A DNA stretch of 64,000 nt from Thermoplasmatales archaeon. GTDB lineage: Archaea > Thermoplasmatota > E2 > DHVEG-1. Shown piece after piece: positions 2,755-28,763 of this stretch; within the stretch, counting starts at the first letter, position 1; every line of letters starts with the position of its first letter. Location of the stretch: contig DAOVGR010000039.1 of NCBI GenBank assembly GCA_030672305.1, positions 66,651 through 130,650 on the forward strand, in the 5' to 3' direction. Made by a program: the position numbers and the translations under genes. The notes beneath the pieces are model-generated. The model was not told the origin of the DNA. It worked only from the letters and a program-made list of their open reading frames with translations, and searched no databases.

Positions 2755-3696
2755 TTATATGCTATATCCAAAAAATTCAAAGTAGGGTTTCATTGTTTTA
2801 AATATTAGTTTTTTAAGAAATATAACCTCTGGAAGTAACTGGAGTTTTCTTGGTTTTATGTATCTACTGAAATTCATATCTGTTTTCAAATCAAGAAAAT
2901 CTAATATAGCTTTGATTATCTCATCAGGCTTTTCACATAAATCCCCATATTTTATAGAAATATAGTCCTCTTTAGATAGATTTTTTATGTTTTTAAGATA
3001 GTAATTAGTAGCCTTTTTAGAATGCCAGATTACTTCAAATATTCCTGGAGGGAATTTTGATGTATAATACATTTTTGATGCAAAAAGTAAAAGTGGATTT
3101 TTGTATAATTTATCATATTCCTTGGAATATAGTATAAAAAATTCGTCCCTGGATTTAAGTCTAGTTTTCCAAAGTCTCATAATTGAACTTATTACTTCAA
3201 GCGGATTTCTATGGATAAAAACAAATTTAGCATTTGGATATATTTTTTTAATGAGAAGAAAATTTGGGTAATCATGAGGATTTTTTAGTAGTAATGGTTT
3301 ATCGTTTTCTGAAATATATTGTATCTTTTTACATAGAATATCGAATAATTCTTTGCTAATATTATTTATTTTTGAACTAAAATTTCTCTCTGAAAATATA
3401 TAAGCATACTCATGTTCATAATCAGATGATACTTCAACATTATCTGTTTTTCTAGTTACAATGCCCTTCTCTTTTAATAGATTATTTAATTCTTCTTTTT
3501 CTTTTAATTCGAGATTATTTATATGATTATATATCAGTCTATCAAAATTTAAAACATGGTATAAATTTAAAAAATTGAAATTTCCTGTTTCATTTAACAT
3601 TTTATATAAAACGGTTGTTCCTGAACGATGAAGACCTAATATAAAAGTAGGTGTAAAAGATTTGTTTTTAATTTTATCTAAATAATTACAATCTAT
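2755..3696 (-). CDS. Sulfotransferase family protein with apparent ATA start
   Basis: The protein has the hallmarks of a PAPS-dependent sulfotransferase: an N-terminal 5'-phosphosulfate loop GLHRSGTT and a downstream 3'-phosphate-binding stretch FVFIHRNPLEVISSIMRLW. The first ATG in frame (3600) lies inside the protein, after the PAPS loop, so it cannot be the true start. The frame is open upstream to a TGA at 3705-3703. A GGTG Shine-Dalgarno-like sequence lies 7 nt before an in-frame ATA (3694-3696), exactly where an ATG would be expected. With that start the protein has 313 aa. Either ATA initiates, or the start was lost by an ATG-to-ATA change, or the base is wrong. It is probably part of the surrounding biosynthetic cluster. 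Confidence 0.75.
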   Translation of the reverse strand: MDCNYLDKIKNKSFTPTFILGLHRSGTTVLYKMLNETGNFNFLNLYHVLNFDRLIYNHINNLELKEKEELNNLLKEKGIVTRKTDNVEVSSDYEHEYAYIFSERNFSSKINNISKELFDILCKKIQYISENDKPLLLKNPHDYPNFLLIKKIYPNAKFVFIHRNPLEVISSIMRLWKTRLKSRDEFFILYSKEYDKLYKNPLLLFASKMYYTSKFPPGIFEVIWHSKKATNYYLKNIKNLSKEDYISIKYGDLCEKPDEIIKAILDFLDLKTDMNFSRYIKPRKLQLLPEVIFLKKLIFKTMKPYFEFFGYSI

Positions 3697-3767
3697 ATTT
3701 TTTCACCTTTTGAGTCCAGACATATAATAAGTTATATTAATGTTTGATTGTTAATTTCTTATGATAT

Positions 3768-5171
3768 ATGAATGCATTTCTTAATCCTATCATAGGTTTG
3801 CCATTCTTAAAAAACTATCTATTTGTGCCTAATAGATTAAGAAGATTAAATCATAAAAAAATGGAAGATTTGAGAGATAAAGCTCTAAGGAAAATTGTTA
3901 GATATGCTTATGATGTACCACTATATCATAAAAAATATAATGCAGCTGGATTTAAACCTGATGATATTAAGGGTATAAAAGATATAGAAAAACTTCCGTT
4001 TATAACTAAAAAAGATATAATTGAAAATTTCCCAGATTCAGTGATTCCAATTGGTTATGATAAAAGTAAAGGTTATATTACTAGCACGAGCGGATCATCA
4101 GGCAAGCCCGTCTCTATCTATTTAGATTTTCCAACTATATCCGCAGGATTAATGCTATTTCTTAGAGAAGGTAAAATATACAACTATAATGTTAGAAAAG
4201 CAAAATTTGTAAGTATTGGTACTTTTCTTAAAGGTAGAATTGATCAGGTTGTCGATGAAGCAATTGTATCAAAAACGAGGATATTTCGTAAATCTGATAG
4301 CTATATGACAATGAATGCTTTTGAACCGATAAAAGATATCATTAAGAGATTAAACGATTTTAAGCCAGATGTTATTTACACTTATCCAATTATTTTACAG
4401 CATCTAGCTTATTTTAAAAAGAAAGGCTATTGCGATAAAATAAACCCAAGAGTTCTTCAAGTAGGAGGATACTCAATGGATAAATACGCTCGTGATTATA
4501 TAGAAGATGCTTTTGGATGTAAAGTATTTAATGTATATCAATCAGTTGAATCATGTGGTGATGTATCCACTGAATGTATCTGTCGAACATGGCATATTAA
4601 TTACGATTTTTATAATGTAGAAACAATAGATGAGAATGAGAATATTGTAGCGCCTGGTGAAAAAGGACATATGGTTTTAACCAGATTATTTGGACAAGGT
4701 ACGCCTATTATTAGGTATACTGGAATGGATGATTGGGTTACTTTGCTTCAAGAATATAAATGTGAATGTGGACTTTCAACGCCCATTTTCAAAAATGGCA
4801 TAGAAGGCAGAATAAGTGCCCGCGTGATTTTACCTGACGGGCGGATTTATCCTGCTGCTTCTTTTGAACTAGTATCTCTTGTACTTACCGATCTTAAGAC
4901 ATTTAAGGTCACCCAGTTTCAAACTATTCAGAATAAAATAGATGAGATTGAAATAAATCTTGTTATTGATAATGATCTTCGTAATGTTGGCCCATCAGTG
5001 AATCTAATTTTCGATAAAGTAAGACAAATATACAGAGAGAAATGTGGACCTGATATTAAAATTACTGTGAAAGAAGTTAAAGAAATTAAATCACCCAAAA
5101 ATAAACCAGCACCACTTGTTATTTCTAAAGTAAAACTTGAGGATGGTTTTAAAATACTAGAATCATATTAA
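3768..5171 (+). CDS. PaaK/CapK-like adenylate-forming enzyme (paralog 1)
   Basis: This 467 aa member of the ANL (acyl-CoA synthetase-like) superfamily is closest to phenylacetate-CoA ligase and the CapK/F390-synthetase group. The ATP-binding P-loop TSTSGSSGKPVS and the adenylation motif GTPIIRYTGMDD are both intact. A Cys pair (KCECG) near residue 330 may bind metal, as in related proteins. Enzymes of this group activate a carboxylate with ATP; the acceptor may be CoA or another thiol or amine. It is the first gene of a plus-strand pair with the B12 radical SAM gene, 45 bp apart. Two paralogs are at 7796-9172 and 27378-28763. Substrate unknown. Confidence 0.88.
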   Translation: MNAFLNPIIGLPFLKNYLFVPNRLRRLNHKKMEDLRDKALRKIVRYAYDVPLYHKKYNAAGFKPDDIKGIKDIEKLPFITKKDIIENFPDSVIPIGYDKSKGYITSTSGSSGKPVSIYLDFPTISAGLMLFLREGKIYNYNVRKAKFVSIGTFLKGRIDQVVDEAIVSKTRIFRKSDSYMTMNAFEPIKDIIKRLNDFKPDVIYTYPIILQHLAYFKKKGYCDKINPRVLQVGGYSMDKYARDYIEDAFGCKVFNVYQSVESCGDVSTECICRTWHINYDFYNVETIDENENIVAPGEKGHMVLTRLFGQGTPIIRYTGMDDWVTLLQEYKCECGLSTPIFKNGIEGRISARVILPDGRIYPAASFELVSLVLTDLKTFKVTQFQTIQNKIDEIEINLVIDNDLRNVGPSVNLIFDKVRQIYREKCGPDIKITVKEVKEIKSPKNKPAPLVISKVKLEDGFKILESY

Positions 5172-5216: not shown

Positions 5217-6638
5217 ATGAATATAACCCTGGTTTTTCCAAATTTAGCTAAATTCCCTTCTTGGTTTGTAAAATATCATATACTTCCTAAGAATCCTTTT
5301 CCTCCTGCACCTCCACTTGGTTTACTCTTGGTAGCAGCATTTGTTGAAAATCAAGGTCATAAAGTTAGAGTCATTGATAATTGTATAGAAGAGTTAGATC
5401 ACAGGGATTTAGTTAAAGAGATACTTAGAACTGATCCAAAAGTAGTTGCATTTCATACCACTAGTTTGACTTATCCTAATGTAAGAACATATTTAGAATT
5501 TATAAAGGAGGAAAATAATGATATTTTTACAGTAGTTGGTGGTCCTCTTGCAACATTTTATCCCGATAGAATTGTAGAGAATCCTAATGTAGATTTTGTT
5601 ATAAGAAATGAAGGGGAGATTACTTTTTCTGAACTTGTAAAAAGCCTTGAAAATGGAGGTAATATTAATACAATAAAAGGATTGTCTTTTAAAAAGGAAA
5701 ATAAGATTGTTCATAATGAGCAAAGACCTTTTATTGAAGATTTAGACAGTTTGCCTTTTCCTGCAAGACATCTAATAGATATATCTAAGTATCCTAGAAG
5801 GGAATTATTTTTTGATGCTTATCCTACAGATGCTGTAAGTACTTCAAGGGGTTGTCCTTATGATTGCCGATTCTGCAGTAGTACTAGATATATGTTTTGT
5901 AGAACATACAGGTTTAGATCTGCAGGGAATGTTGTTGACGAAATAGAATTACTAAAGGAGAAATATGGAACCAAAGGTTTATATTTTAGAGAGGATATTT
6001 TTACAGTAAATAAGAAGAGACTTTTTGCTATTTGTGACGAAATGATAAAAAGAAAAATTGATCTACCTTGGTTATGTGAAAGTAGGGTAGATACAGTTTC
6101 AAAAGATAAATTGAAAAAGATGAAAGCTGCTGGGTGCAAAGCCATCTGGTTTGGCTGTGAATCAGGCTCTCAACGAGTGTTGGATTATATAAATAAGGAG
6201 ATAACTGTTTCTCAAATTGAGGATACTTTCAAATGGTGTAAAGAAGTCGGTATAATTACAGGTGCAGCGTTTATTGTTGGTTTTCCTGGTGAGACGGTTG
6301 AAGATATCAACAAGACAATAGAACTTGCAAAGAGAATACGTTCAAATTATTCTTGGATTAGGATTTATATTGGTTCTCCAAGAAGTCCACTATATGATGA
6401 AGTTATTGAGAAAAAGTATTATAGGCAAGATTGCAAGTGGGAGGGATTAGTGGCAGTAGAAACCCCAGATCTATCTCTTGAAACAATAGTTAAATCACGT
6501 AATAAAATTGAAAAAGAGTTCACTAAAATAACCTTTAAGAGAGTATTATCAGATATTTTTGTAATGCATGAACCACCTATACTGGTTATGAAAAATCTTT
6601 TAAATTTAGTTAAATACCTGGTCGATACACAAGTTTGA
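5217..6638 (+). CDS. B12-binding domain radical SAM protein
   Basis: This 473 aa protein has a cobalamin-binding N-terminal domain (about 1-150, with VVGGPLATFYPDRI), a radical SAM domain with C213-x3-C217-x2-C220 (RGCPYDCRFC), and the conserved GCESGSQRVLDYINK and FIVGFPGE segments typical of BchE/HpnJ/HpnP-like methylases and cyclases. The start is preceded by GAGGAATT, a good ribosome binding site. It probably forms a transcription unit with the upstream CapK-like gene. The substrate is unknown; lipid or secondary-metabolite methylation or cyclisation would be typical of the class. It differs clearly from the other B12 radical SAM protein of this window. Confidence 0.9.
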   Translation: MNITLVFPNLAKFPSWFVKYHILPKNPFPPAPPLGLLLVAAFVENQGHKVRVIDNCIEELDHRDLVKEILRTDPKVVAFHTTSLTYPNVRTYLEFIKEENNDIFTVVGGPLATFYPDRIVENPNVDFVIRNEGEITFSELVKSLENGGNINTIKGLSFKKENKIVHNEQRPFIEDLDSLPFPARHLIDISKYPRRELFFDAYPTDAVSTSRGCPYDCRFCSSTRYMFCRTYRFRSAGNVVDEIELLKEKYGTKGLYFREDIFTVNKKRLFAICDEMIKRKIDLPWLCESRVDTVSKDKLKKMKAAGCKAIWFGCESGSQRVLDYINKEITVSQIEDTFKWCKEVGIITGAAFIVGFPGETVEDINKTIELAKRIRSNYSWIRIYIGSPRSPLYDEVIEKKYYRQDCKWEGLVAVETPDLSLETIVKSRNKIEKEFTKITFKRVLSDIFVMHEPPILVMKNLLNLVKYLVDTQV

Positions 6639-7795: not shown

Positions 7796-9172
7796 TTAAC
7801 CCTTATTTAACTTGGTAATGATAGGTGATGGTGGTTTACTAAGATTATCACTTCCTATCACTTTTTTAACTTCCTTTACTTCAAATTGGAAAGTTTTACC
7901 AAATATCTTATAATATTCTTTTTTAATTTCTGCAATAAGTTTATCTAAGGATGGCGGATCGTTCCTTTTATCTTCATTAATAACAATAAGTATGTCTATT
8001 TTATCCAATTTCTCTTGGACTACTTGGAATTGTAATATTTTTTCAGTCTTTAATACCCGCATGGGTTCTGTAAAAATAGAGGGTGTTATATATTTTCCAT
8101 CAGGTGACTTTATTTGATGAACTCGTCTCCCATCAATGCGTTTAATAAGTTGCGAATACAAACCGCAAGGGCAGGTATCATAGAGCGGTGTAACGATATC
8201 GTCCAACCCAGTATAACGTATGAAGGGAGTTCCTTTTCCAAAAAATCGTGTTAAGACAACATGCCCAGGTTCACCTGATGACACTGGTTCCCCTTTTTCA
8301 TCAAGAAATTCGAGATATAGATAATCTGATAATACATGATAGTTACCTTCTTCACACTCGATTGCCCCTAGACCCATTTCTACGGAGCTGTACATGTCTA
8401 CTACTTTACAATGAAAAGCGTCTTCGATGTATGATCTTACGTATCCATCTAGCATCCCCCCTGATGTTACTATTACTCTAGGTTTGATATCTTTTCCATA
8501 GCCTTTTTTTTTAAGAAAAGCCAAAGCCTGTATATCTACAGGTGGCCCTAGAATAAAATCCGGCTTGAATGTATTTATTTTTTCAATTTTTTCATTTAAA
8601 TCTTTGTATGTATAAGTTAGATGTTGAGCGTTAACTAGTGAAGAAGAGAAAAATTTCAAATTATCTAAGATGGCATGCTTAGCGGCATAATCATATCTAC
8701 CTGGTGAATCGTGTGGACCAAAACTCGTAAGTCTATCTTTTCTCCAGTTAATATCGACAATCCTAAGACTTCTATCACCATAAACTAAATCCTGAAGTAA
8801 ACCAAATGTGTCTCTATAGAAAGAAAGAGGTTTACCTGTTGAACCTGAGGAGTGTATTATCCATAATTTGTTTTTATTTACATTCTTTGGGATAACACTA
8901 TTGGGAAATGCATCCCTTATATCATTTTTTGAAACCATTGGAAGTTTGTGCAGGTCATCTATGCCTCTAATGTCATTTGGATGTATATTTAGTTCTTTGT
9001 ATTTTTTATTATATAGTGGCACCGTATAGGCATATTTTACTGCCCGTCTTAATGCCCGATCCTGAAATCGTTTTAATTTTTCTGGCGATATATCCCATAA
9101 TCTATCTACATCGAACAAGTAGCTTTTGACAGCCTTGAATGTAAACACAGGATTTAAAAATGGATTAATCAT
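7796..9172 (-). CDS. PaaK/CapK-like adenylate-forming enzyme (paralog 2)
   Basis: This 458 aa ANL-superfamily enzyme is collinear with paralog 1. It shares the N-terminal signature (RFQDRALRRAVKYAYTVPLYNKKY), P-loop HSSGSTGKPLSFY, a YSSVEMG motif, GTPFIRYTGLDD and a CPCG cysteine pair. All usual ATP-handling segments look intact. It is monocistronic here, transcribed towards the IS200 remnant, and separated from the upstream tRNA by about 155 bp. The carboxylate it activates is unknown. Shared presence beside radical SAM genes at three places suggests the paralogs belong to related accessory pathways. Confidence 0.88.
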   Translation of the reverse strand: MINPFLNPVFTFKAVKSYLFDVDRLWDISPEKLKRFQDRALRRAVKYAYTVPLYNKKYKELNIHPNDIRGIDDLHKLPMVSKNDIRDAFPNSVIPKNVNKNKLWIIHSSGSTGKPLSFYRDTFGLLQDLVYGDRSLRIVDINWRKDRLTSFGPHDSPGRYDYAAKHAILDNLKFFSSSLVNAQHLTYTYKDLNEKIEKINTFKPDFILGPPVDIQALAFLKKKGYGKDIKPRVIVTSGGMLDGYVRSYIEDAFHCKVVDMYSSVEMGLGAIECEEGNYHVLSDYLYLEFLDEKGEPVSSGEPGHVVLTRFFGKGTPFIRYTGLDDIVTPLYDTCPCGLYSQLIKRIDGRRVHQIKSPDGKYITPSIFTEPMRVLKTEKILQFQVVQEKLDKIDILIVINEDKRNDPPSLDKLIAEIKKEYYKIFGKTFQFEVKEVKKVIGSDNLSKPPSPIITKLNKG

Positions 9173-10774: not shown

Positions 10775-13115
<2,341 letters not shown>

Positions 13116-21143: not shown

Positions 21144-22046
21144 ATGGAGAATGATGTTTATGATAATTACATTTTTGCAGGTAAGATTGCAGCAAAAGCT
21201 AGAGAATATGGCATTGGTTTATTAAAACCAGGATTTAAATATTTGGAAATTGCTGAAAAAGTTGAATCAAAAATTATAGAAGGTGGAGCTGGACTTGCCT
21301 TTCCAGTTAATATTTCAATAAATGAGATTGCAGCTCATTTTAGCCCAAGACATGATGATGCGACATTGACCTTAAAAAAAGGAGATGTGGTAAAATTAGA
21401 TCTTGGAGCACATTTTGAAGGATATATTGCAGATACTGCAATAACTGTTGAGATTGGGTCTAATGAATATGAAAATATGATTAAAGCATCAACTGAAGCA
21501 TTGGAAAATGTTATTAATTTTATAAAACCTCAAATTAAACTATTTGATATTGGAAAATGTGTTGAGGATACTATTAAATCCTACGGTTTCAAACCAATTA
21601 TTAATCTTACAGGACATAGTATGAAAAGATATGTACTTCATGCAGGAATGACTATCCCAAATGTTGCAGATCGATCTTATAAAAATAAATTAAAAATCGG
21701 TGATGTTTTAGCAATTGAACCTTTCGCAACAAATGGTGCAGGGCAAGTTATAACTGGAGAGGGGAGCAATATTTACCTATGTAAGAATACTTTTAAACCA
21801 AGACTTATCAGAGATAATCGAGCAAAAATTATGTTTAGCAAGGCAAAGAATATTTTTAATACACTTCCCTTTGCTCAAAGATGGTTTGAAAAGCAATTTT
21901 CTAATAGTGATATTTTATTAAGAAAACTCTCCTTTCTAGGAATGATAAAGCACTATCCACAACTAATCGATGCGAATAAAGGAATTGTAACTCAGAAAGA
22001 GCATACGGTTATAATAACAGAAGAAGGATGTGAGGTAATCACATGA
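21144..22046 (+). CDS. map: Methionine aminopeptidase, type II
   Basis: This 300 aa dinuclear metallopeptidase removes the N-terminal Met. Metal ligands are visible in LDLGAHFEGYIADTA (two Asp), TGHSMKRYVLHAG (His), AIEPFATNG (Glu) and the C-terminal QKEHTVIITEEG (Glu). The insert of about 60 residues before the last ligand marks the type II subfamily of Archaea and eukaryotes. The start MENDVYDNYIFAG fits homologs; the frame opens 13 codons earlier inside sua5. Its last 4 bases overlap the next gene. Confidence 0.94.
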   Translation: MENDVYDNYIFAGKIAAKAREYGIGLLKPGFKYLEIAEKVESKIIEGGAGLAFPVNISINEIAAHFSPRHDDATLTLKKGDVVKLDLGAHFEGYIADTAITVEIGSNEYENMIKASTEALENVINFIKPQIKLFDIGKCVEDTIKSYGFKPIINLTGHSMKRYVLHAGMTIPNVADRSYKNKLKIGDVLAIEPFATNGAGQVITGEGSNIYLCKNTFKPRLIRDNRAKIMFSKAKNIFNTLPFAQRWFEKQFSNSDILLRKLSFLGMIKHYPQLIDANKGIVTQKEHTVIITEEGCEVIT

Positions 22047-22903
22047 AAAATAATACCAATAAAATAACAGAATCAAAAATTATCAAATTAGAAGAACTAA
22101 ATTGGAAACAAATCGACAAACTTGATAGAAATAAAACAATTTTCTTTTTACCAATTAGCCCGTTAGAGGAGCATGGACCTCATTTACCTGTTGGAACAGA
22201 TTTACTGACTATAAAAGACGTTGTTAATGAGGCAGTAAAAATCTTAAATAAAAAAAATCCTGAACTAGCATATGTTGTAATACCTCCAATACCACTTGGC
22301 TATTGTAAATTTAATACAGAATTTCCAGGTAGTATATCTGTTAGTGGAAAAGTTGTAAGAGATGTTGTTTATAGTGTTGGATCATCACTGGGAAATCATA
22401 AATTTAAATATCTGATTATTTGCACATTTCATTTAGCTGTAGCCCATCTTAGGGGTATATATTCTGCTATGAAGAAACTAGAATCTGAATTTGGATTTAG
22501 AACTTGTGAACCATGGGGACCTATCTATTACAAAAAAGATATTGAAAAAAGGGAACCAAAATTAGGTTTTGATACAACAAAAGAAGTTCATGGAGGTTTT
22601 AGAGAAACTTCACTTATGAAATACCAATATCCTTACCTTGTAGATGAATCTTATAAAAAATTGCAAAGTATATATAGAGATGTTTTCTCACCTAGAGTTT
22701 TAGGAAAGAATTTTAAAGAAATTGGTTTAAAAGATGGTTACATTGGTAGTCCTGCAAGAGCAGATGCTGATTATGGAAGATGGTTTTTTAATGAGTTAGT
22801 AAATGTTTTTGTCGATTCAACAATCAAACTTTATGAGGGAAAAAAACTTCCAGAGTTACCGAACCATGTTAAAATTGCAATGAAAGCACTTTTTTGGCAA
22901 TAA
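22043..22903 (+). CDS. Creatininase-family amidohydrolase/peptidase with altered motifs
   Basis: The 286 aa protein has the N-terminal creatininase signature LPISPLEEHGPHLPVGTD, which carries Glu, His and Asp metal ligands. The family's usual NGHGGN (or NGHYEN) is replaced by CTFHLAVAH, and the HAGExETS-type motif reads HGGFRETS, so the metal site may differ. Relatives include creatininase, the pterin/flavin-pathway deformylase ArfB and the mycofactocin precursor protease MftE. It overlaps map by 4 bp but ends 6 bp from the convergent last gene of the radical SAM operon. A role in trimming those peptides is only a hypothesis. Confidence 0.78.
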   Translation: MKNNTNKITESKIIKLEELNWKQIDKLDRNKTIFFLPISPLEEHGPHLPVGTDLLTIKDVVNEAVKILNKKNPELAYVVIPPIPLGYCKFNTEFPGSISVSGKVVRDVVYSVGSSLGNHKFKYLIICTFHLAVAHLRGIYSAMKKLESEFGFRTCEPWGPIYYKKDIEKREPKLGFDTTKEVHGGFRETSLMKYQYPYLVDESYKKLQSIYRDVFSPRVLGKNFKEIGLKDGYIGSPARADADYGRWFFNELVNVFVDSTIKLYEGKKLPELPNHVKIAMKALFWQ

Positions 22904-22909
22904 ATTTTA

Positions 22910-24211
22910 TTAAACCTCTGTTACAGGTTTTCCATGTTCTTTTGATGAAAAACCGGTCATCTCTTTTTTAAGAATCTGTTCAAGTTTCTTTTTTTCTTTA
23001 AATTCAATTTTTTTAGTCAAATTTATTGCATTATTGTAAACTCTTTTTGCCTCTAGCTTCCTGTTATTTATAGATAATGCTCTCGCCAAATTCCAATAAT
23101 ATAGTAGGTGATTTCTATCAATTTTAATTGCTTCTTTTAATTCATTAATTGCTTTTTTATAATTACCAATTATAAACTCTTTAATTCCTTTATAAAAAAA
23201 AACTGAAGCTTCTCGTTCTAATAAATCATATGAGAAAAATACTGTTTTATCGGTATTGCACTCATTAGAAAGTTTCAATAGAGATGCTTTAACATTTGAT
23301 TTTTCTTTATCGTTTAATAATAATTTCTTTATGCTTTGTTTTCCAACATTACAAACTGTTAGATATGTTTTATTTTGAGTCCCTGCATTATCAGAGGATT
23401 CTTTTATTAGATGAAATAAAATAGATGGGAAATCTATTTTATCAAGAAAATTTAAAGTTTCAATATGTGAAATCAATTTGTTTTTTAATATTATTTTATG
23501 ATTTATGCACTCTTTTAAAAACAGTTTTGTCATTTTTACATTTTGAACTGATCCCTCTATTACAATTTCGTCTATTAATCCAAATTTTTTATTTTTGTAA
23601 AACTTTTTGATCATTTCTAAAAATAAATCAATTAATTTTTCTTGTTCTAGAACTATATAAAAACTATTTTTGTCGACTATTTTTTCATTTATTAATTTTT
23701 TTCTAAAAGTAGAAACAACCTGAAATGGTTGATTCTCTCTGGTTTTTTTACAAATAATTTTTTGTGTAGGATGATTTTTTTCTTTTTCATAAAACGACTT
23801 TTTAATATCCTCAAATCCAGTTTTATAAAGCAACATTTCTAAGAGATCAGTTGGAAAACAAAGTGAATGCAACATACCTTTTGATTCCACCCCGTAGATC
23901 CAGGTTAAAAGATTTTTACGAGTTTCAAGATCGCCTTCTATGAATTCTTTGAATGATTTTTCTAAATCTGGGGTTTCTAATAGTAGTTCTCCGCCAGGTT
24001 TTAACACTCTGAACCATTCAGCTAAAATATAGATGCTTTTTATTAGACCAAAATGTTCAATGACTTGATAGGCTTCGATTCTATCAATCGTATTAGCAGT
24101 GAATTTTAAGTCATTAGCAGACATGATTTTATCTGCCACTGTTGAATCATAGGCATCGATATTGATGAATCCTTCTTTGTAAGTCTTACCACAGCCAATG
24201 TTTAGTTTCAT
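22910..24211 (-). CDS. Methyltransferase-TPR fusion, last gene of radical SAM operon
   Basis: The 433 aa protein starts with a class I SAM-dependent methyltransferase-like domain (LNIGCGKTYKEGFINID, IEAYQVIEHFG, EWFRVLKPGGELLLETPD; about 1-160). A Lys/Asn-rich middle follows, then two or three TPR-like repeats at the C-terminus (about 345-415, KGIKEFIIGNYKKAINELKEAIKIDRNHLLYYWNLARALS). ATG 24211 follows SD AGGAGA. It is 16 bp downstream of the second radical SAM gene, so it is probably co-transcribed. It could methylate the same product; the substrate is unknown. The motif resembles the COG4627 group. Confidence 0.82.
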   Translation of the reverse strand: MKLNIGCGKTYKEGFINIDAYDSTVADKIMSANDLKFTANTIDRIEAYQVIEHFGLIKSIYILAEWFRVLKPGGELLLETPDLEKSFKEFIEGDLETRKNLLTWIYGVESKGMLHSLCFPTDLLEMLLYKTGFEDIKKSFYEKEKNHPTQKIICKKTRENQPFQVVSTFRKKLINEKIVDKNSFYIVLEQEKLIDLFLEMIKKFYKNKKFGLIDEIVIEGSVQNVKMTKLFLKECINHKIILKNKLISHIETLNFLDKIDFPSILFHLIKESSDNAGTQNKTYLTVCNVGKQSIKKLLLNDKEKSNVKASLLKLSNECNTDKTVFFSYDLLEREASVFFYKGIKEFIIGNYKKAINELKEAIKIDRNHLLYYWNLARALSINNRKLEAKRVYNNAINLTKKIEFKEKKKLEQILKKEMTGFSSKEHGKPVTEV

Positions 24212-24227
24212 ATATAAACAAATTCTC

Positions 24228-25298
24228 CTAATCAATTTCGACAAAATTTTGTATATTTTTCTCAATTCGATAATAACAATTTGGGTCGTTATGAGGAATT
24301 CCTGTTATACTACTCGATCTAGTTAAACATCCACCTTTGCATTTTTTTCCATATTTGCATTGTTGACAATTTTCTCCCAGATTTTCAACTTTAAATTTCC
24401 GATTAAAGGCAAAGGCATTTGGATCATTCCAGATTTCTTTGATATTCCTTTTATGAATATTTCCCTCAATAAATTCATCAGACATCGCAAGACATCCTTT
24501 GACGTTTCCATTGCTTTGAATTCCTAGAACTGTTTTTCCAGCGTAACAACCTTCCCATTCTGGATAATTACTTAAATTTGGAATAACTCGCGAAAAGAAT
24601 CCAAAATTATGTACACCGACAATCGGAATTTCTTTTGTTTTATATTTTTTTTGCATAGAATACACAAAGAGACCTAGAGTATAATACTCTTCATCTGATA
24701 ATAAAAGCTTTTTTGGAAATCTACCTATTGGTGTTGCTTCCTGGATTTGCCATCCTATTTGTTCCTCTATAATAAAATTTTTAATTTTTGGCAATTCTCT
24801 AAAATTTATCTTATGAACTGTTGTAATAATTCCTATTGGTAGATTTGCCTCTTTTGCTGCACGAATAAATTTTGTTACTTTACTGTAGGCACCTTCAACA
24901 TTTCTTATTTTATCCTGCATTTCTGCTGAAGCACCATCCAGACCAACCATAAGACATTCTGGTTCTATCTTTTTTAATTGAGGGATAATTTTTTTCGGAT
25001 CAAAATACCCATTTGTAATTATTGATAAGGTAATTCCTAAATCTTTAATTTCTCTAGAAATAACTGGCCAATCCTTACGTAAAAATATCTCGCCACCCAT
25101 TAATGCGATTCCTTTAAATCCTAAATCTGAGAGCTCATGGCAGAGCTGAAGAGCTTCCTTTGTAGTTAATTCATCTGTCCTTTTTAATCCTGCAGAAGAA
25201 CCACAATGAAGACACTTTAAATTACATCTGAGCGTAAGCTCCCAAACAGTGATATCAGGATTTTTATAGATTCCTTTACTTATCATAATATCATTCAT
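24228..25298 (-). CDS. Radical SAM/SPASM peptide maturase-like enzyme B
   Basis: This 356 aa protein has a radical SAM core with C25-x3-C29-x2-C32 (LRCNLKCLHC), GGE at MGGEIF, and a C-terminal SPASM domain. Multiple Cys (GCYAG, GCLAM, CQQCKYGKKCKGGC, NCYY) fit two auxiliary iron-sulfur clusters. SPASM enzymes typically modify peptides or proteins. It is about half identical to its upstream neighbour, a tandem duplication. ATG 25298 overlaps the neighbour's stop by 8 bases, so translation is probably coupled. Its motif reads GGEIF where the twin has GGEPF. The proximity of three small peptide genes suggests their products as substrates. Confidence 0.9.
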   Translation of the reverse strand: MNDIMISKGIYKNPDITVWELTLRCNLKCLHCGSSAGLKRTDELTTKEALQLCHELSDLGFKGIALMGGEIFLRKDWPVISREIKDLGITLSIITNGYFDPKKIIPQLKKIEPECLMVGLDGASAEMQDKIRNVEGAYSKVTKFIRAAKEANLPIGIITTVHKINFRELPKIKNFIIEEQIGWQIQEATPIGRFPKKLLLSDEEYYTLGLFVYSMQKKYKTKEIPIVGVHNFGFFSRVIPNLSNYPEWEGCYAGKTVLGIQSNGNVKGCLAMSDEFIEGNIHKRNIKEIWNDPNAFAFNRKFKVENLGENCQQCKYGKKCKGGCLTRSSSITGIPHNDPNCYYRIEKNIQNFVEID

Positions 25299-26340
25299 TT
25301 TTTTGTAATATTTCAGGTTCAATTTTATAGAAACAGTAGGGATGATTATGAAATCTACTAGTAAATCCAACAGACATGCCTGAACATCCACCTTTACATG
25401 TTTCACCAAATTTACAACCTTTACAATTTTCTCCTAAATAATCAACTTTAAATTTTCTTGTATATGCAAATGAATTTGGAGAATTCCAAATATCTATGAT
25501 ACTTTTTTCTCTAATATTCCCTTCAATTTTAGATTCTGGTATTGCAAGGCATCCAATGACATCGCCATTGCTTTTGATGCTCAGTACAGATATGCCCGCT
25601 TGACAACCAGCCCATCCTGGATAAAGACCTAACCATGGAAGGTGTCGTGAATGGTATCCAAAACAATGTGCACCAACAACTGGCATTTCTTTTGGCGTAT
25701 ATTTTTTCTTAAGTGATGCAATAAATATAGCAGCAGAATAGTATTCTTCTTTTGATAAAGCATATTTATGTAAAAATCTACCTTCAGGTGTCGCAATCTG
25801 AATTTGCCATGCTATTTGTTTATTTAATAGGAAATCTCGCAGCTCTGGTAATTCCTTAAAGTTCAATTTATTAACAGTGGTTATCACTGTTGTTGGTAGA
25901 TCTGCTTCTTTTGATAAAGAAATATACTCCATAACCTTGTCAAATGATCCATTAACTCCCCTAATATGATCATGTGTTTCTGGAGTTGAACCGTCTAAAC
26001 TAGTTGAAACACTGTGTGGTTCAAGTTTTACTAGTTTTGAAATTATGTCTTTATTGATGTTATAACCATTTGAGATAAAAAGTAACTTCATTTTCAAATC
26101 TCTGACCTGCTTTGCGATGATATACCAATCTTTTCTTAGGAATGGTTCTCCGCCCATAAGACAGATTTCTTGTGCGTCTAAATCCTTGAGATCTTTACAT
26201 AATTGTATAGCTTCATCTGTTGATAGTTCATTAGGGCGGGCTCTACCTGCTGAAGAACCACAGTGAATGCACTTTAAATTACAACGAAGTGTTGTTTCCC
26301 AAACAACCTGACCAAGTTTATATATCTGCTCCGAAGGCAT
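25291..26340 (-). CDS. Radical SAM/SPASM peptide maturase-like enzyme A
   Basis: This 349 aa protein has a radical SAM motif C20-x3-C24-x2-C27 (LRCNLKCIHC), LMGGEPFLRKDW, and the SPASM domain with GCQAG, GCLAI, CKGCKFGETCKGGC and a last Cys in PYCFYK. There is no obvious N-terminal peptide-recognition (RRE) domain; the core begins almost at residue 10. It is the first gene of a three-gene operon with its paralog and a methyltransferase-TPR protein, behind its own TATA box (about 26381-26388). It starts 91 bp downstream of the last small precursor-like gene, same strand. No described family could be assigned from memory. Confidence 0.9.
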   Translation of the reverse strand: MPSEQIYKLGQVVWETTLRCNLKCIHCGSSAGRARPNELSTDEAIQLCKDLKDLDAQEICLMGGEPFLRKDWYIIAKQVRDLKMKLLFISNGYNINKDIISKLVKLEPHSVSTSLDGSTPETHDHIRGVNGSFDKVMEYISLSKEADLPTTVITTVNKLNFKELPELRDFLLNKQIAWQIQIATPEGRFLHKYALSKEEYYSAAIFIASLKKKYTPKEMPVVGAHCFGYHSRHLPWLGLYPGWAGCQAGISVLSIKSNGDVIGCLAIPESKIEGNIREKSIIDIWNSPNSFAYTRKFKVDYLGENCKGCKFGETCKGGCSGMSVGFTSRFHNHPYCFYKIEPEILQKNE

Positions 26341-26380
26341 ATAATCACTTATAAATCAGCAAATGATAAGTATCAAAAAC

Positions 26381-26388
26381 TATTTAAA
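26381..26388 (-). promoter_or_regulatory. TATA box of the radical SAM operon
   Basis: TTTAAATA on the minus strand lies about 42 bp before the ATG of radical SAM enzyme A, which would give a leader of about 15-20 nt. It indicates that the maturase operon can be expressed separately from the precursor-like genes. Confidence 0.45.
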
Positions 26389-26430
26389 AGAAGATGATGA
26401 AATTTTCAAATAATCTTAGAAATTTTTTAA

Positions 26431-26610
26431 TTAAAAATCTTTGATACTAATTGATCCATAAAAACAACTTGTATACATAGGTGGACGTGGACCTGTTTCT
26501 GATTTAGGCTGTTTTATTACATTGGTATAACTGTTAAGCACGTTTTTAATTTCAGTCTGGCTTAAACCTAGCTTTTTTCCAACTTGATAGTATGTCTTAC
26601 AACTACTCAT
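26431..26610 (-). CDS. Putative RiPP precursor peptide 3
   Basis: A 59 aa peptide, starting at ATG 26610 (a TTG four codons upstream is less likely; the context TAATAAAAATGA matches that of precursor 2). The N-terminal half YYQVGKKLGLSQTEIKNVLNSY is leader-like and amphipathic. The C-terminal half begins at GP and reads MYTSCFYGSISIKDF at its end. Two sister genes upstream share the final nine residues almost exactly. The pattern of related leader, variable middle and conserved tail, next to two radical SAM/SPASM enzymes, is what RiPP precursors look like. It is the only one of the three with Cys in the presumed core. Confidence 0.8.
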   Translation of the reverse strand: MSSCKTYYQVGKKLGLSQTEIKNVLNSYTNVIKQPKSETGPRPPMYTSCFYGSISIKDF

Positions 26611-26668
26611 TTTTATTACCAATTTTTCAGAGATTAATTCAAAGATTATAAAAGTTATGTAATATTAG

Positions 26669-26730
26669 TAACAAAAACACGGTAGAATGTGTCATATAAA
26701 TACTTTCTGTTACAAGAGTAATTGACACAT
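26669..26730. repeat. Two interleaved inverted repeats between precursor genes
   Basis: GTAACA (26669-26674) pairs with TGTTAC (26709-26714), and TGTGTCA (26689-26695) pairs with TGACACA (26724-26730). The arms alternate A-B-A'-B', so they cannot form two simple hairpins but could make a pseudoknot in RNA, or be two overlapping operators in DNA. They flank the TATA-like sequence of precursor gene 3. Confidence 0.5.
26694..26704 (-). promoter_or_regulatory. TATA box of precursor gene 3
   Basis: The minus strand reads GTATTTATATG followed by ACACATT. The same arrangement, a TATTTAT-type box followed within 15 nt by ACACATT, occurs upstream of precursor 2, and TATTTAA-ACACT occurs upstream of precursor 1. 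A second AT-rich candidate lies nearer the gene at about 26648-26655. Confidence 0.5.
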
Positions 26731-26790
26731 AACCTTTTGTTATTATAATATCATCTCAAAGAATTTTGATATTGTTAATTTGTGATTTAT

Positions 26791-26964
26791 TTAAAGATCC
26801 TTGATACTAACTGTTCCATAACGATTTCCTGGATACCATGGTGGTCCTGATGAGAAATAAACTTGTTCCAGGCTTGAATTTTCTATAATGTTTTCTATAT
26901 CAATATTACTTAAACCTAGTTTGTTTCCAAGTTTATAAATTTTAATTTCCGTATGATTTTTCAT
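26791..26964 (-). CDS. Putative RiPP precursor peptide 2 (57 aa)
   Basis: A 57-codon gene from ATG 26964 to TAA 26791. The leader-like part IKIYKLGNKLGLSNIDIENIIENS aligns with precursor 3 (YYQVGKKLGLSQTEIKNVLNSY). The C-terminal part starts with SGPPWYPG and ends RYGTVSIKDL, differing from its sisters mostly between GP and YG. There is no Cys in the peptide. Its short length makes it easy to miss, but position, orientation, spacing (about 180 bp from each sister) and sequence make it a genuine member of the set. Confidence 0.8.
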   Translation of the reverse strand: MKNHTEIKIYKLGNKLGLSNIDIENIIENSSLEQVYFSSGPPWYPGNRYGTVSIKDL

Positions 26965-27040
26965 TTTTATCAGTCCTAATATTATTCACTAGATTAATGT
27001 ATCTATGAATAATTAAACCATATACCTCAATGTGTAATAA

Positions 27041-27050
27041 TTTATAAATA
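27041..27050 (-). promoter_or_regulatory. TATA box of precursor gene 2
   Basis: The minus strand reads TATTTATAAA, followed by ACACATT about 8 nt on, as in the region before precursor 3. Just upstream, TGCTC (27054-27058) and GAGCA (27065-27069) form a short inverted repeat where a TFB-recognition or regulator site would lie. Confidence 0.55.
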
Positions 27051-27131
27051 TTCTGCTCTAAATGGAGCATTATTACCATTAAGATATTATATTCTAAACG
27101 AAATTTTTAAAATATGAGTTTAATGATTTAT

Positions 27132-27320
27132 TTAGAAATCTTTGATGCTTATTGTTCCATAATAAGTTGAAGTATACATTACAGGACCCGCTGTTAAACA
27201 GCCTTGTTCGTTTGATGATGCTCTGTTTGCTAAAATACTTTCTACTTCTTCTCTATTTATTCCCAGGGTGCTTGTCAGCTCGTTGAGCTTTCCCCAATTT
27301 ATATTGATATATTGTAGCAT
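27132..27320 (-). CDS. Putative RiPP precursor peptide 1
   Basis: A 62 aa peptide from ATG 27320; an ATG five codons upstream (27335) is also in frame, but it lies only 15 nt from the TATA box, so the inner start, giving a nearly leaderless mRNA, fits better. The leader-like part contains GKLNELTSTLGINREEVESIL. The C-terminal part starts at AGP and ends MYTSTYYGTISIKDF. It shares MYTS with precursor 3, and the nine-residue tail with both sisters. One Cys lies in the middle (QGCLTAG), before GP. It is the first of the three and follows the CapK-like gene by 57 bp on the same strand. Confidence 0.8.
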   Translation of the reverse strand: MLQYININWGKLNELTSTLGINREEVESILANRASSNEQGCLTAGPVMYTSTYYGTISIKDF

Positions 27321-27350
27321 GGTATCACGAAACATGAATACAATTAGTGT

Positions 27351-27357
27351 TTAAATA
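27351..27357 (-). promoter_or_regulatory. TATA box of precursor gene 1
   Basis: The minus strand reads AAAGTATTTAAACACTAATT between the stop of the CapK-like gene and precursor 1. Archaeal transcription would start about 25 nt downstream, close to the ATG at 27320. Each of the three peptide genes thus has its own promoter-like sequence. Confidence 0.55.
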
Positions 27358-27377
27358 CTTTTTGGAAAAATATTCTT

Positions 27378-28763
27378 TTAAATAAGATATTTTTTCTCGA
27401 TAAATTTTGTTCTATCAATTCTAGATATAAAATATTCATCTTTTACATCAAAATGTTTAACTTCGCTTATCGTTAATTGAATATTAGAACCACTTTTTTC
27501 TAAAAATTTCCTTTTCAAAACACCAAAGATTATTTCTGGAGATGCACCAACGTTCCTTAATTCTTTATAAAAAAGTACCTTAATTTCTAAACTGTTAATC
27601 TTATTTTGAATTATCTGAATACGTTGAATTTTATTTGCTTTTGTTTCGTGAATTGTTTCACCTAAAACATTATCAATGAAGGAGGGCAACGCCATTACCC
27701 CATTCGATAGAAGAATAGAATGACTCTTCCGTCCATGTATCTTCTTTATTAGAGTTCCAGTTAAACCACAAGAACAATTATTTTTAAGAGGTGTGACAAC
27801 ATCGTCAATACCCGTGTACCTAATGATTGGAGTTCCTTTACCATAAAGTTTAGTAATTACCAAAGTGCCAGGTTTTCCTTGTGAAACATGTTTTCCATTT
27901 GTTAAAAATTCTGTATAAATCATATCAGAATGCACATGATAATTTCCTTTTTTACATTCAAAAGCAATAGGTCCAGATTCTGTTGCCGCATAAAAATCAT
28001 ATATTTTAGTACTAAATTTTTCTTCAATATATTTTCTCAAATATTCGTCTAAATAGGCACCAGATGATAAAATACATCTTGGAGCTATATTCTTACCAAA
28101 ACCCTTATCTTTAAGCATAGCCAACCGAATAAGTGCAAATGGATATCCTCCAATGAACTCTGGTTGAAATTGGTCAATTTTTTTAATAACTTTTTCAGAT
28201 ATACTAAACAAATCAAAGATCTGTATATTTTTTTCAGAAAAAAATGGTTTGATTGCAGAAAAGGTACTATTGATAAAATATTCATTTTCAAAACTTCTAT
28301 CAGATAAATCAATCAGTAAGGACATCTTAGTTTTTCTCCAATCAACGTCATATTCGTTTAATGCTCTAACAAATCCTAACATACCCTTAAAAACGGTGTA
28401 AAAATCAAAATATACTGGTAATGAGTCCCTTGTTGTACCACCCGTTCTTGAGACGATTCCTTTTTTTTTATTAAAATTAGGTGAAACGATACCATCTGGT
28501 GAATATTTCCTTATATCATCTTTTGTAATAAAAGGTAATTTTTCTATATCGTCAATTCCATGAATATCTCGAGGATGAACACCAGCCGCATTATATTTAT
28601 CTCTGTACAAAGGAACTTTGTAAGCATGGATAACCATTTTTCTTAATAAGATATTTTGAAATGCTTTTAGCTCTTCGGTTGTCTTTTTTCTTAATCTATC
28701 TGGGTCCACCAAATAGCTTTTAAGGATTCGAGATAAAAGAACTGGTTTGAAAAAGAGATTCAT
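27378..28763 (-). CDS. PaaK/CapK-like adenylate-forming enzyme (paralog 3), atypical P-loop
   Basis: This 461 aa paralog of the enzymes at 3768 and 7796 has the same N-terminal signature (FQNILLRKMVIHAYKVPLYRDKYNAAG), YAATESG, GTPIIRYTGIDD and a CSCG pair. The ATP loop, however, reads RTGGTTRDSLPVYFD in place of the canonical SGTTGKP, so the conserved Gly-Lys is missing and the activity may be altered. ATG 28763 is just 5 bp past the stop of the deoxyhypusine synthase gene. It lies immediately upstream of the three precursor-like genes. Substrate unknown; acylation or activation of the peptide product is a guess. Confidence 0.87.
   Translation of the reverse strand: MNLFFKPVLLSRILKSYLVDPDRLRKKTTEELKAFQNILLRKMVIHAYKVPLYRDKYNAAGVHPRDIHGIDDIEKLPFITKDDIRKYSPDGIVSPNFNKKKGIVSRTGGTTRDSLPVYFDFYTVFKGMLGFVRALNEYDVDWRKTKMSLLIDLSDRSFENEYFINSTFSAIKPFFSEKNIQIFDLFSISEKVIKKIDQFQPEFIGGYPFALIRLAMLKDKGFGKNIAPRCILSSGAYLDEYLRKYIEEKFSTKIYDFYAATESGPIAFECKKGNYHVHSDMIYTEFLTNGKHVSQGKPGTLVITKLYGKGTPIIRYTGIDDVVTPLKNNCSCGLTGTLIKKIHGRKSHSILLSNGVMALPSFIDNVLGETIHETKANKIQRIQIIQNKINSLEIKVLFYKELRNVGASPEIIFGVLKRKFLEKSGSNIQLTISEVKHFDVKDEYFISRIDRTKFIEKKYLI

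Follow-up and report, generated by a model that had tools for sequence, protein, structure and literature searches.

The stretch of DNA analyzed here (the window: 64,000 nucleotides of contig DAOVGR010000039.1, from a 2.8 Mb, 88% complete genome of the Thermoplasmatota) raises the question of what three short, similar genes encode beside two genes for radical S-adenosylmethionine (SAM)/SPASM enzymes, and what those enzymes would do to the products. Judged from the sequences, the group is very probably a system of the ribosomally synthesized and post-translationally modified peptide (RiPP) type, in which precursors made of a leader and a core are matured by SPASM enzymes; a genetically encoded precursor whose leader and core are conserved does lie beside a modifying enzyme, the arrangement by which RiPPs are recognized. 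On the minus strand the order of transcription is a CapK-like gene, precursors A, B and C, the radical SAM genes rSAM1 and rSAM2, and a gene for a methyltransferase with tetratricopeptide repeats (methyltransferase-TPR). Our re-examination bore out all gene positions, strands and motifs of an earlier, preliminary description of this DNA, including three precursors of 57–62 codons with a [KT]LG[LI][SN]-type leader motif and a GP...YG[TS][IV]SIKD[FL] tail, and Pfam and NCBIfam searches confirmed the two radical SAM/SPASM, methyltransferase-TPR and CapK-like genes around them.

Precursors, cores and co-occurring enzymes

The precursors, all on the minus strand, are A (27132–27320; 62 residues from the ATG at 27320, with an alternative ATG at 27335; MLQYININWGKLNELTSTLGINREEVESILANRASSNEQGCLTAGPVMYTSTYYGTISIKDF), B (26791–26964; 57 residues, tail YPGNRYGTVSIKDL) and C (26431–26610; 59 residues, with an alternative TTG start at 26622; tail YTSCFYGSISIKDF). 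Measured against the orthologous cluster in a congeneric genome, their ratios of nonsynonymous to synonymous substitution (dN/dS) were 0.28, 0.19 and 0.22, respectively, and this purifying selection argues that they are real genes, not chance frames. The precursors share a leader of consensus K-[IL]-Y-x-[LI]-G-x-x-LGL-[SN]-x-x-[DE]-I, a small helical motif followed by a variable linker, and a C-terminal core of consensus Y-x4-X-Y-G-[TS]-[IV]-S-I-K-D-[FL], represented in the window by TYYG, NRYG and CFYG, each behind GP. When 29 Thermoplasmatota precursors were aligned (precursor A was entered without its start codon, which leaves the conclusions unaffected), the first tyrosine of the core was invariant and the second tyrosine, the glycine and the serine nearly so; the sole row without these three, from locus L028, is incomplete, and YG was present in all complete soluble precursors of the alignment. 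Some precursors carry the tail more than once: at locus L037 (genome G018) one has three tandem copies of YKAGTxYGT[VI]SxKD and another has two, while at L036 and L047 two precursors are fused into one. As such repetition behind a single leader is a hallmark of RiPPs, we take the tail to be the core. The precursors matched no named NCBIfam family, and Pfam found no DUF1843 in them.

The first enzyme gene, rSAM1 (25291–26340, minus strand), encodes a 349-residue radical SAM/SPASM maturase (Pfam Radical_SAM 1.7e-26, SPASM ~1e-9), and the start of its radical SAM/SPASM paralog rSAM2 (24228–25298, minus strand; Radical_SAM 4e-22, SPASM 5e-10; 53% identity to rSAM1) overlaps the rSAM1 stop. Their radical SAM motifs are CNLKCIHC and CNLKCLHC, respectively, and both have an intact set of SPASM cysteines.

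A RiPP-type pairing of these leader-plus-core peptides with SPASM maturases, as had been proposed, is strongly supported by the repeated cores and by co-occurrence across genomes. Within the family (45 genomes), strong precursor matches (E<1e-10) and rSAM1 matches at E<1e-180 single out an identical set of 10 genomes; methyltransferase-TPR occurred in the same 10 and one more. Across the phylum 23 of 293 Thermoplasmatota genomes had the radical SAM family, and 11 of these also had precursors, so that the tail is not, as the preliminary description had allowed it might be, common in genomes lacking such an enzyme; no precursor was found in the 270 genomes without the family. Among 69 loci, the tail pattern appeared in 106 of 3038 short open reading frames (ORFs) near a radical SAM gene of the family versus 12 of 4110 elsewhere (counts that are not independent, some loci duplicating one genome), and about eight of the latter either are true orphan precursors or stand beside a truncated radical SAM gene. 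The expectation that every hit would adjoin a radical SAM gene held for whole genomes and failed for single loci, about half of the precursors in the window's own genome being orphans. As three further precursors elsewhere in that genome have no radical SAM neighbors, one set of maturases probably serves several loci.

Relatives in Asgard archaea and bacteria

Searching named genomes with rSAM1 returned ~50 homologs at 40–56% identity, as well as some of higher identity, from Thermoplasmatota, Lokiarchaeota, Thor- and Heimdallarchaeota, Elusimicrobiota and Desulfobacterota (the last from records labeled Deltaproteobacteria, Geobacter and Syntrophus), and many of these were flanked by a methyltransferase-TPR homolog and small genes with the same tail. 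The system, first proposed as an archaeal one, is not confined to archaea: radical SAM enzyme, methyltransferase and tail all occur in Elusimicrobiota and Desulfobacterota as well. The precursors of Lokiarchaeota have the leader motif, a hydrophobic segment that by eye reads as a transmembrane helix, and then Y[PA]xG[TS]xY[SG][TS][VI]x[IL]KDF; those of Elusimicrobiota are lipoprotein-like and end YPCGTRYYTVSxxDF; and those of Desulfobacterota have a signal-like segment and a Kunitz/BPTI domain, followed by YPVSKYGGVSIRDF or YPCGTRYFTVSLRDF. Kunitz-bearing precursors were recognized at L071:8442–8975, L055:8571–8999, L054:1012–1446, L059:8460–8999 and L090:8562–8999, three by Pfam (1e-13 to 1e-14, with the domain ahead of the tail) and two by cysteine pattern. 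In MGHKYGGVGIRDF of L090 and NGSRYAGGSINDF of L051 the first tyrosine is lost and the second retained.

Two types of locus can be told apart. Most Thermoplasmatota loci (type i) have soluble precursors, usually two radical SAM genes, methyltransferase-TPR and CapK, and those of Lokiarchaeota, bacteria and some Thermoplasmatota (type ii) have anchored or secreted precursors, one radical SAM gene, and usually a methyltransferase but not CapK. An additional ORF of Kunitz pattern lies nearby at both L090 and L064; L090 comes from an isolate, Geomobilimonas luticola JCM 17780. At L088, a deltaproteobacterial locus with two radical SAM genes, 6089–6304 and 11152–11343 encode small proteins with LTVExLExRxAP at the N-terminus and the tails PPPYPPGTRYGLIRRDKLQF and PPPYAPGTDYGLLRRDNLSW, in which we see the core in a diverged form.

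Maturase placement and possible chemistry

For the window enzymes and ten relatives, the two best NCBIfam families were TIGR03913 and TIGR04103 (160–229 bits), which scored clearly above the heme, NirJ and mycofactocin maturase families. TIGR04103, 'nif11-class peptide radical SAM maturase 3', which we take to be the same as IPR026482, corresponds to the PlpX-type enzymes of spliceotides. A review of spliceotides places PlpX in IPR026482 (PMC11002830). In our tree the new enzymes and the PlpX-, GDL-type and Agathobacter enzymes were set off from MftC and TIGR04053 (support 100/99). An AlphaFold model of rSAM1 (predicted local distance difference test, pLDDT, 92) had SkfB, PqqE and SuiB as its top folds (template-modeling scores 0.67–0.74); no solved structure of a close relative was found, the best by sequence being SkfB and PqqE. 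The preliminary view that the combination matches no known RiPP class stands in that the enzymes reach the cut-off of none of the named maturase families in NCBIfam, and has to be modified in that TIGR04103 and TIGR03913 are their nearest kin and the YG of the tail corresponds to the XYG of spliceases.

With spliceotides, whose hallmark is a loss of 135.07 Da (the equivalent of tyramine) with ketoamide formation, the window system shares a best or second-best profile, the radical SAM plus SPASM architecture, a clade, an X-Tyr-Gly in the core and the possibility of several sites per precursor. Unlike them it is archaeal, has neither a Nif11 or NHLP leader nor PlpY, adds the methyltransferase-TPR and CapK-like genes, and has a second conserved tyrosine upstream, with Ser, Tyr or Phe at Y+1 in some lineages. 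The GDL/DUF1843 maturases (TIGR03913, 'rad_SAM_trio') are matched with an equal profile score, and their loci likewise have tandem small peptides directly before the radical SAM gene and no separate PlpY; in addition, the GDL spacing Y-x10-GDL resembles the Y-x10-KDL of precursor B, and one Aureibacter GDL cluster also holds a class I methyltransferase. However, in the DUF1843 peptides the tyrosine precedes the DUF1843 domain, close to the N-terminus, whereas that of the window is near the C-terminus behind a leader, and the window enzymes have no long C-terminal extension with CxxC pairs. The sactipeptide, ranthipeptide, pyrroloquinoline quinone (PQQ) and mycofactocin systems (SkfB, SuiB, PqqE, MftC) have the SPASM radical SAM fold in common with the window, but there the profile scores are far lower (112–127 bits for the MftC family, cut-off 265), MftC lies outside the clade, the core has no Cys pattern, and no MftB-like gene was found among the cluster proteins with Pfam and NCBIfam.

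We tentatively place the window enzymes in a separate, splicease-like lineage of radical SAM/SPASM enzymes, whose chemistry we infer. The modification is probably aimed at the second tyrosine of the core, since relatives without the first (L090, L051) still have the second. Excision of tyramine at the XYG site is the candidate reaction that we favor, with some hesitation, because the XYG cores of the window behind GP resemble a published tag and because the Nostoc and DUF1843 peptides carry X-Tyr-small sites: the precursor of the Nostoc PlpX-family enzyme ends SIALYGLPPELF, and the GDL/DUF1843 peptides beside TIGR03913 enzymes carry LYG, PYG, LYA, MYA or MYM. Published splice tags read GPIRPLYGLPI, and the splicease works on such short tags without a leader (PMC10533398); XYG is reported as the site of splicing, and spliced peptides are described as protease inhibitors (PMC10373908, PMC11117315). 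Together with the Kunitz fusions, such reports suggest that the mature peptide might inhibit proteases, a role that we hold to be possible rather than probable.

Beyond precursor plus maturase, every step is one that we infer. The radical SAM/SPASM enzymes would excise tyramine at the second tyrosine and leave a ketone-bearing, electrophilic peptide; the methyltransferase might then methylate the product, e.g., at the nucleophilic carbon beside the new ketone, for which a RiPP precedent exists in ApyS, an enzyme that methylates an alpha-keto acid at its beta-carbon (PMC11117315); the CapK-like enzyme could activate a carboxylate for further conjugation; and a protease whose gene lies outside the cluster would cut off the leader. 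The likeliest targets of the resulting electrophilic product would be serine or cysteine proteases, and in relatives the tail would be exposed at the cell surface (Lokiarchaeota) or joined to a Kunitz inhibitor (Geobacter, Syntrophus).

Several observations weigh against this kinship or this chemistry. For TIGR04103, rSAM1 and rSAM2 scored 198 and 181 bits, respectively, with a cut-off of 725, and for TIGR03913 scores were 202–206 bits with a cut-off of 592; identity was ~32% to the Nostoc PlpX-family protein, a plasmid-borne member used in place of Pleurocapsa PlpX in our PlpX comparisons. As a long-branched Parabacteroides TIGR04133 enzyme also falls near PlpX and GDL in the tree, the branch order there is unsure and only partly resolved. 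Neither an RRE nor a PqqD domain was found in the cluster with Pfam, rSAM1 itself has no N-terminal RRE, and no locus held a homolog of PlpY, a truncated RRE protein that partners PlpX; the query was a small protein encoded next to the PlpX-family gene of Nostoc, which we assume from its position to be PlpY. In place of the Gly of XYG, the Y+1 residue is mostly Ser in Lokiarchaeota and Tyr or Phe in Elusimicrobiota, and the first tyrosine, invariant in the Thermoplasmatota cores, is left unexplained by splicing. We do not file the system as a member of the spliceotide family, but it probably works like one.

Almost as likely as splicing is cross-linking or other tyrosine chemistry within the same RiPP system, in which the enzymes would C–H-functionalize the conserved tyrosine or tyrosines (for example, to a tyrosine-based C–C, C–O or C–N ring, or by epimerization) instead of excising tyramine. 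The fixed spacing of two tyrosines in nearly all cores, the two radical SAM paralogs of the soluble-precursor type, the scores under the splicease cut-offs, the variable Y+1 residue and the nearest solved folds, SkfB, PqqE and SuiB, which form inter-residue bonds, would all suit such a reaction; on the other hand, the first tyrosine is dispensable in several relatives, the nearest profile families are not cyclizing ones, and lineages with a single radical SAM gene retain both tyrosines.

The pairing of a tyrosine-bearing peptide with a SPASM enzyme also recalls PQQ and mycofactocin, which are both derived from tyrosines of peptides, and the peptide could be the starting material from which a redox cofactor or a small molecule is made, with a creatininase-family gene (22043–22903) that converges on the cluster supplying an MftE-like peptidase. 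The product of this gene, which is also adjacent at L032, matches MftE at 6.5e-15, below the cut-off; we rejected it as a peptidase of the system and consider it housekeeping because it is present in 43 of 45 family genomes, most of them without the cluster. With MftC outside the clade, and cores that are numerous, divergent outside the motif, repeated, and membrane-anchored or Kunitz-fused in relatives, a cofactor precursor seems improbable. Least credible of all is a structural or DNA-binding role for the small proteins, their genes standing beside the radical SAM genes by coincidence: weak helix-turn-helix- or UBA-like Pfam matches to the leader half (E 0.02–0.2) and the orphan copies would be in keeping with this, but the strict phylogenetic co-occurrence with the radical SAM and methyltransferase-TPR genes, the repeated cores and the same tail beside radical SAM genes in other phyla speak strongly to the contrary.

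If tyrosine splicing (or some other backbone modification) is what these enzymes do, one may speculate that they form a lineage separate from both curated ones and common to Thermoplasmatota, Asgard archaea, Elusimicrobiota and Desulfobacterota, and that this lineage equips secreted, membrane-anchored or Kunitz-fused proteins with electrophilic beta-amino-acid warheads so that they act as protease inhibitors, a proposal that we make with considerable reserve. The system was not curated in the NCBIfam and Pfam releases searched, our literature searches found no archaeal spliceotide, and, as far as we have checked, no such system has been predicted in archaea before. The RiPPs of archaea have hardly been explored; according to a 2025 survey, which left the radical SAM-modified ones unexamined, only two archaeal lanthipeptides had been validated earlier (PMC12144867). 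Ribosomal beta-amino acids, so far described across bacteria (PMC10373908), would then extend to archaea, Asgard lineages included, and to surface-anchored proteins, with the Kunitz fusions as an independent hint of a protease-inhibitor role. The enzymes, which seem to work on a short tail with neither a Nif11/NHLP leader nor PlpY, could help to install ketoamides.

Neighboring genes and orphan precursors

The methyltransferase-TPR gene (22910–24211, minus strand) encodes 433 residues, with a class I SAM-dependent methyltransferase and an alpha-helical TPR C-terminal half (Pfam); a fold search with its predicted structure (pLDDT 92.5) returned generic methyltransferases only. The CapK-like gene (27378–28763, minus strand) encodes a 461-residue PaaK/CapK-like adenylate-forming enzyme (NCBIfam PaaK-family matches 5e-32) and belongs to the cluster in most Thermoplasmatota loci. 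A close cluster-borne copy was present in nine of the 10 precursor genomes, and in the tenth (G018) a CapK relative adjoins methyltransferase-TPR on another contig. We rejected CapK as a marker of the system since paralogs are found in nearly all genomes; only the cluster-borne copies (at least 48% identity) track it. The PaaK/CapK-like family is expanded in this lineage, and the window has two extra paralogs (3768–5171 and 7796–9172; 37–40% identical to the cluster copy). At L057, where genome G021 has a second cluster, the gene between methyltransferase-TPR and CapK (3012–3992) is a third radical SAM/SPASM gene, distant from the others.

Orphan precursors without radical SAM neighbors were located at L027:8606–8794, L028:8502–8729, L029:7814–7987, L031:9258–9455, L038:278–727 and L039:6005–6181. 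Their surroundings vary: the one at L028 is near a NosD/beta-helix protein, as is an outlying copy in L030, the pair at L038 adjoins a condensation-domain acyltransferase, and the one at L027 adjoins an IS200-type transposase.

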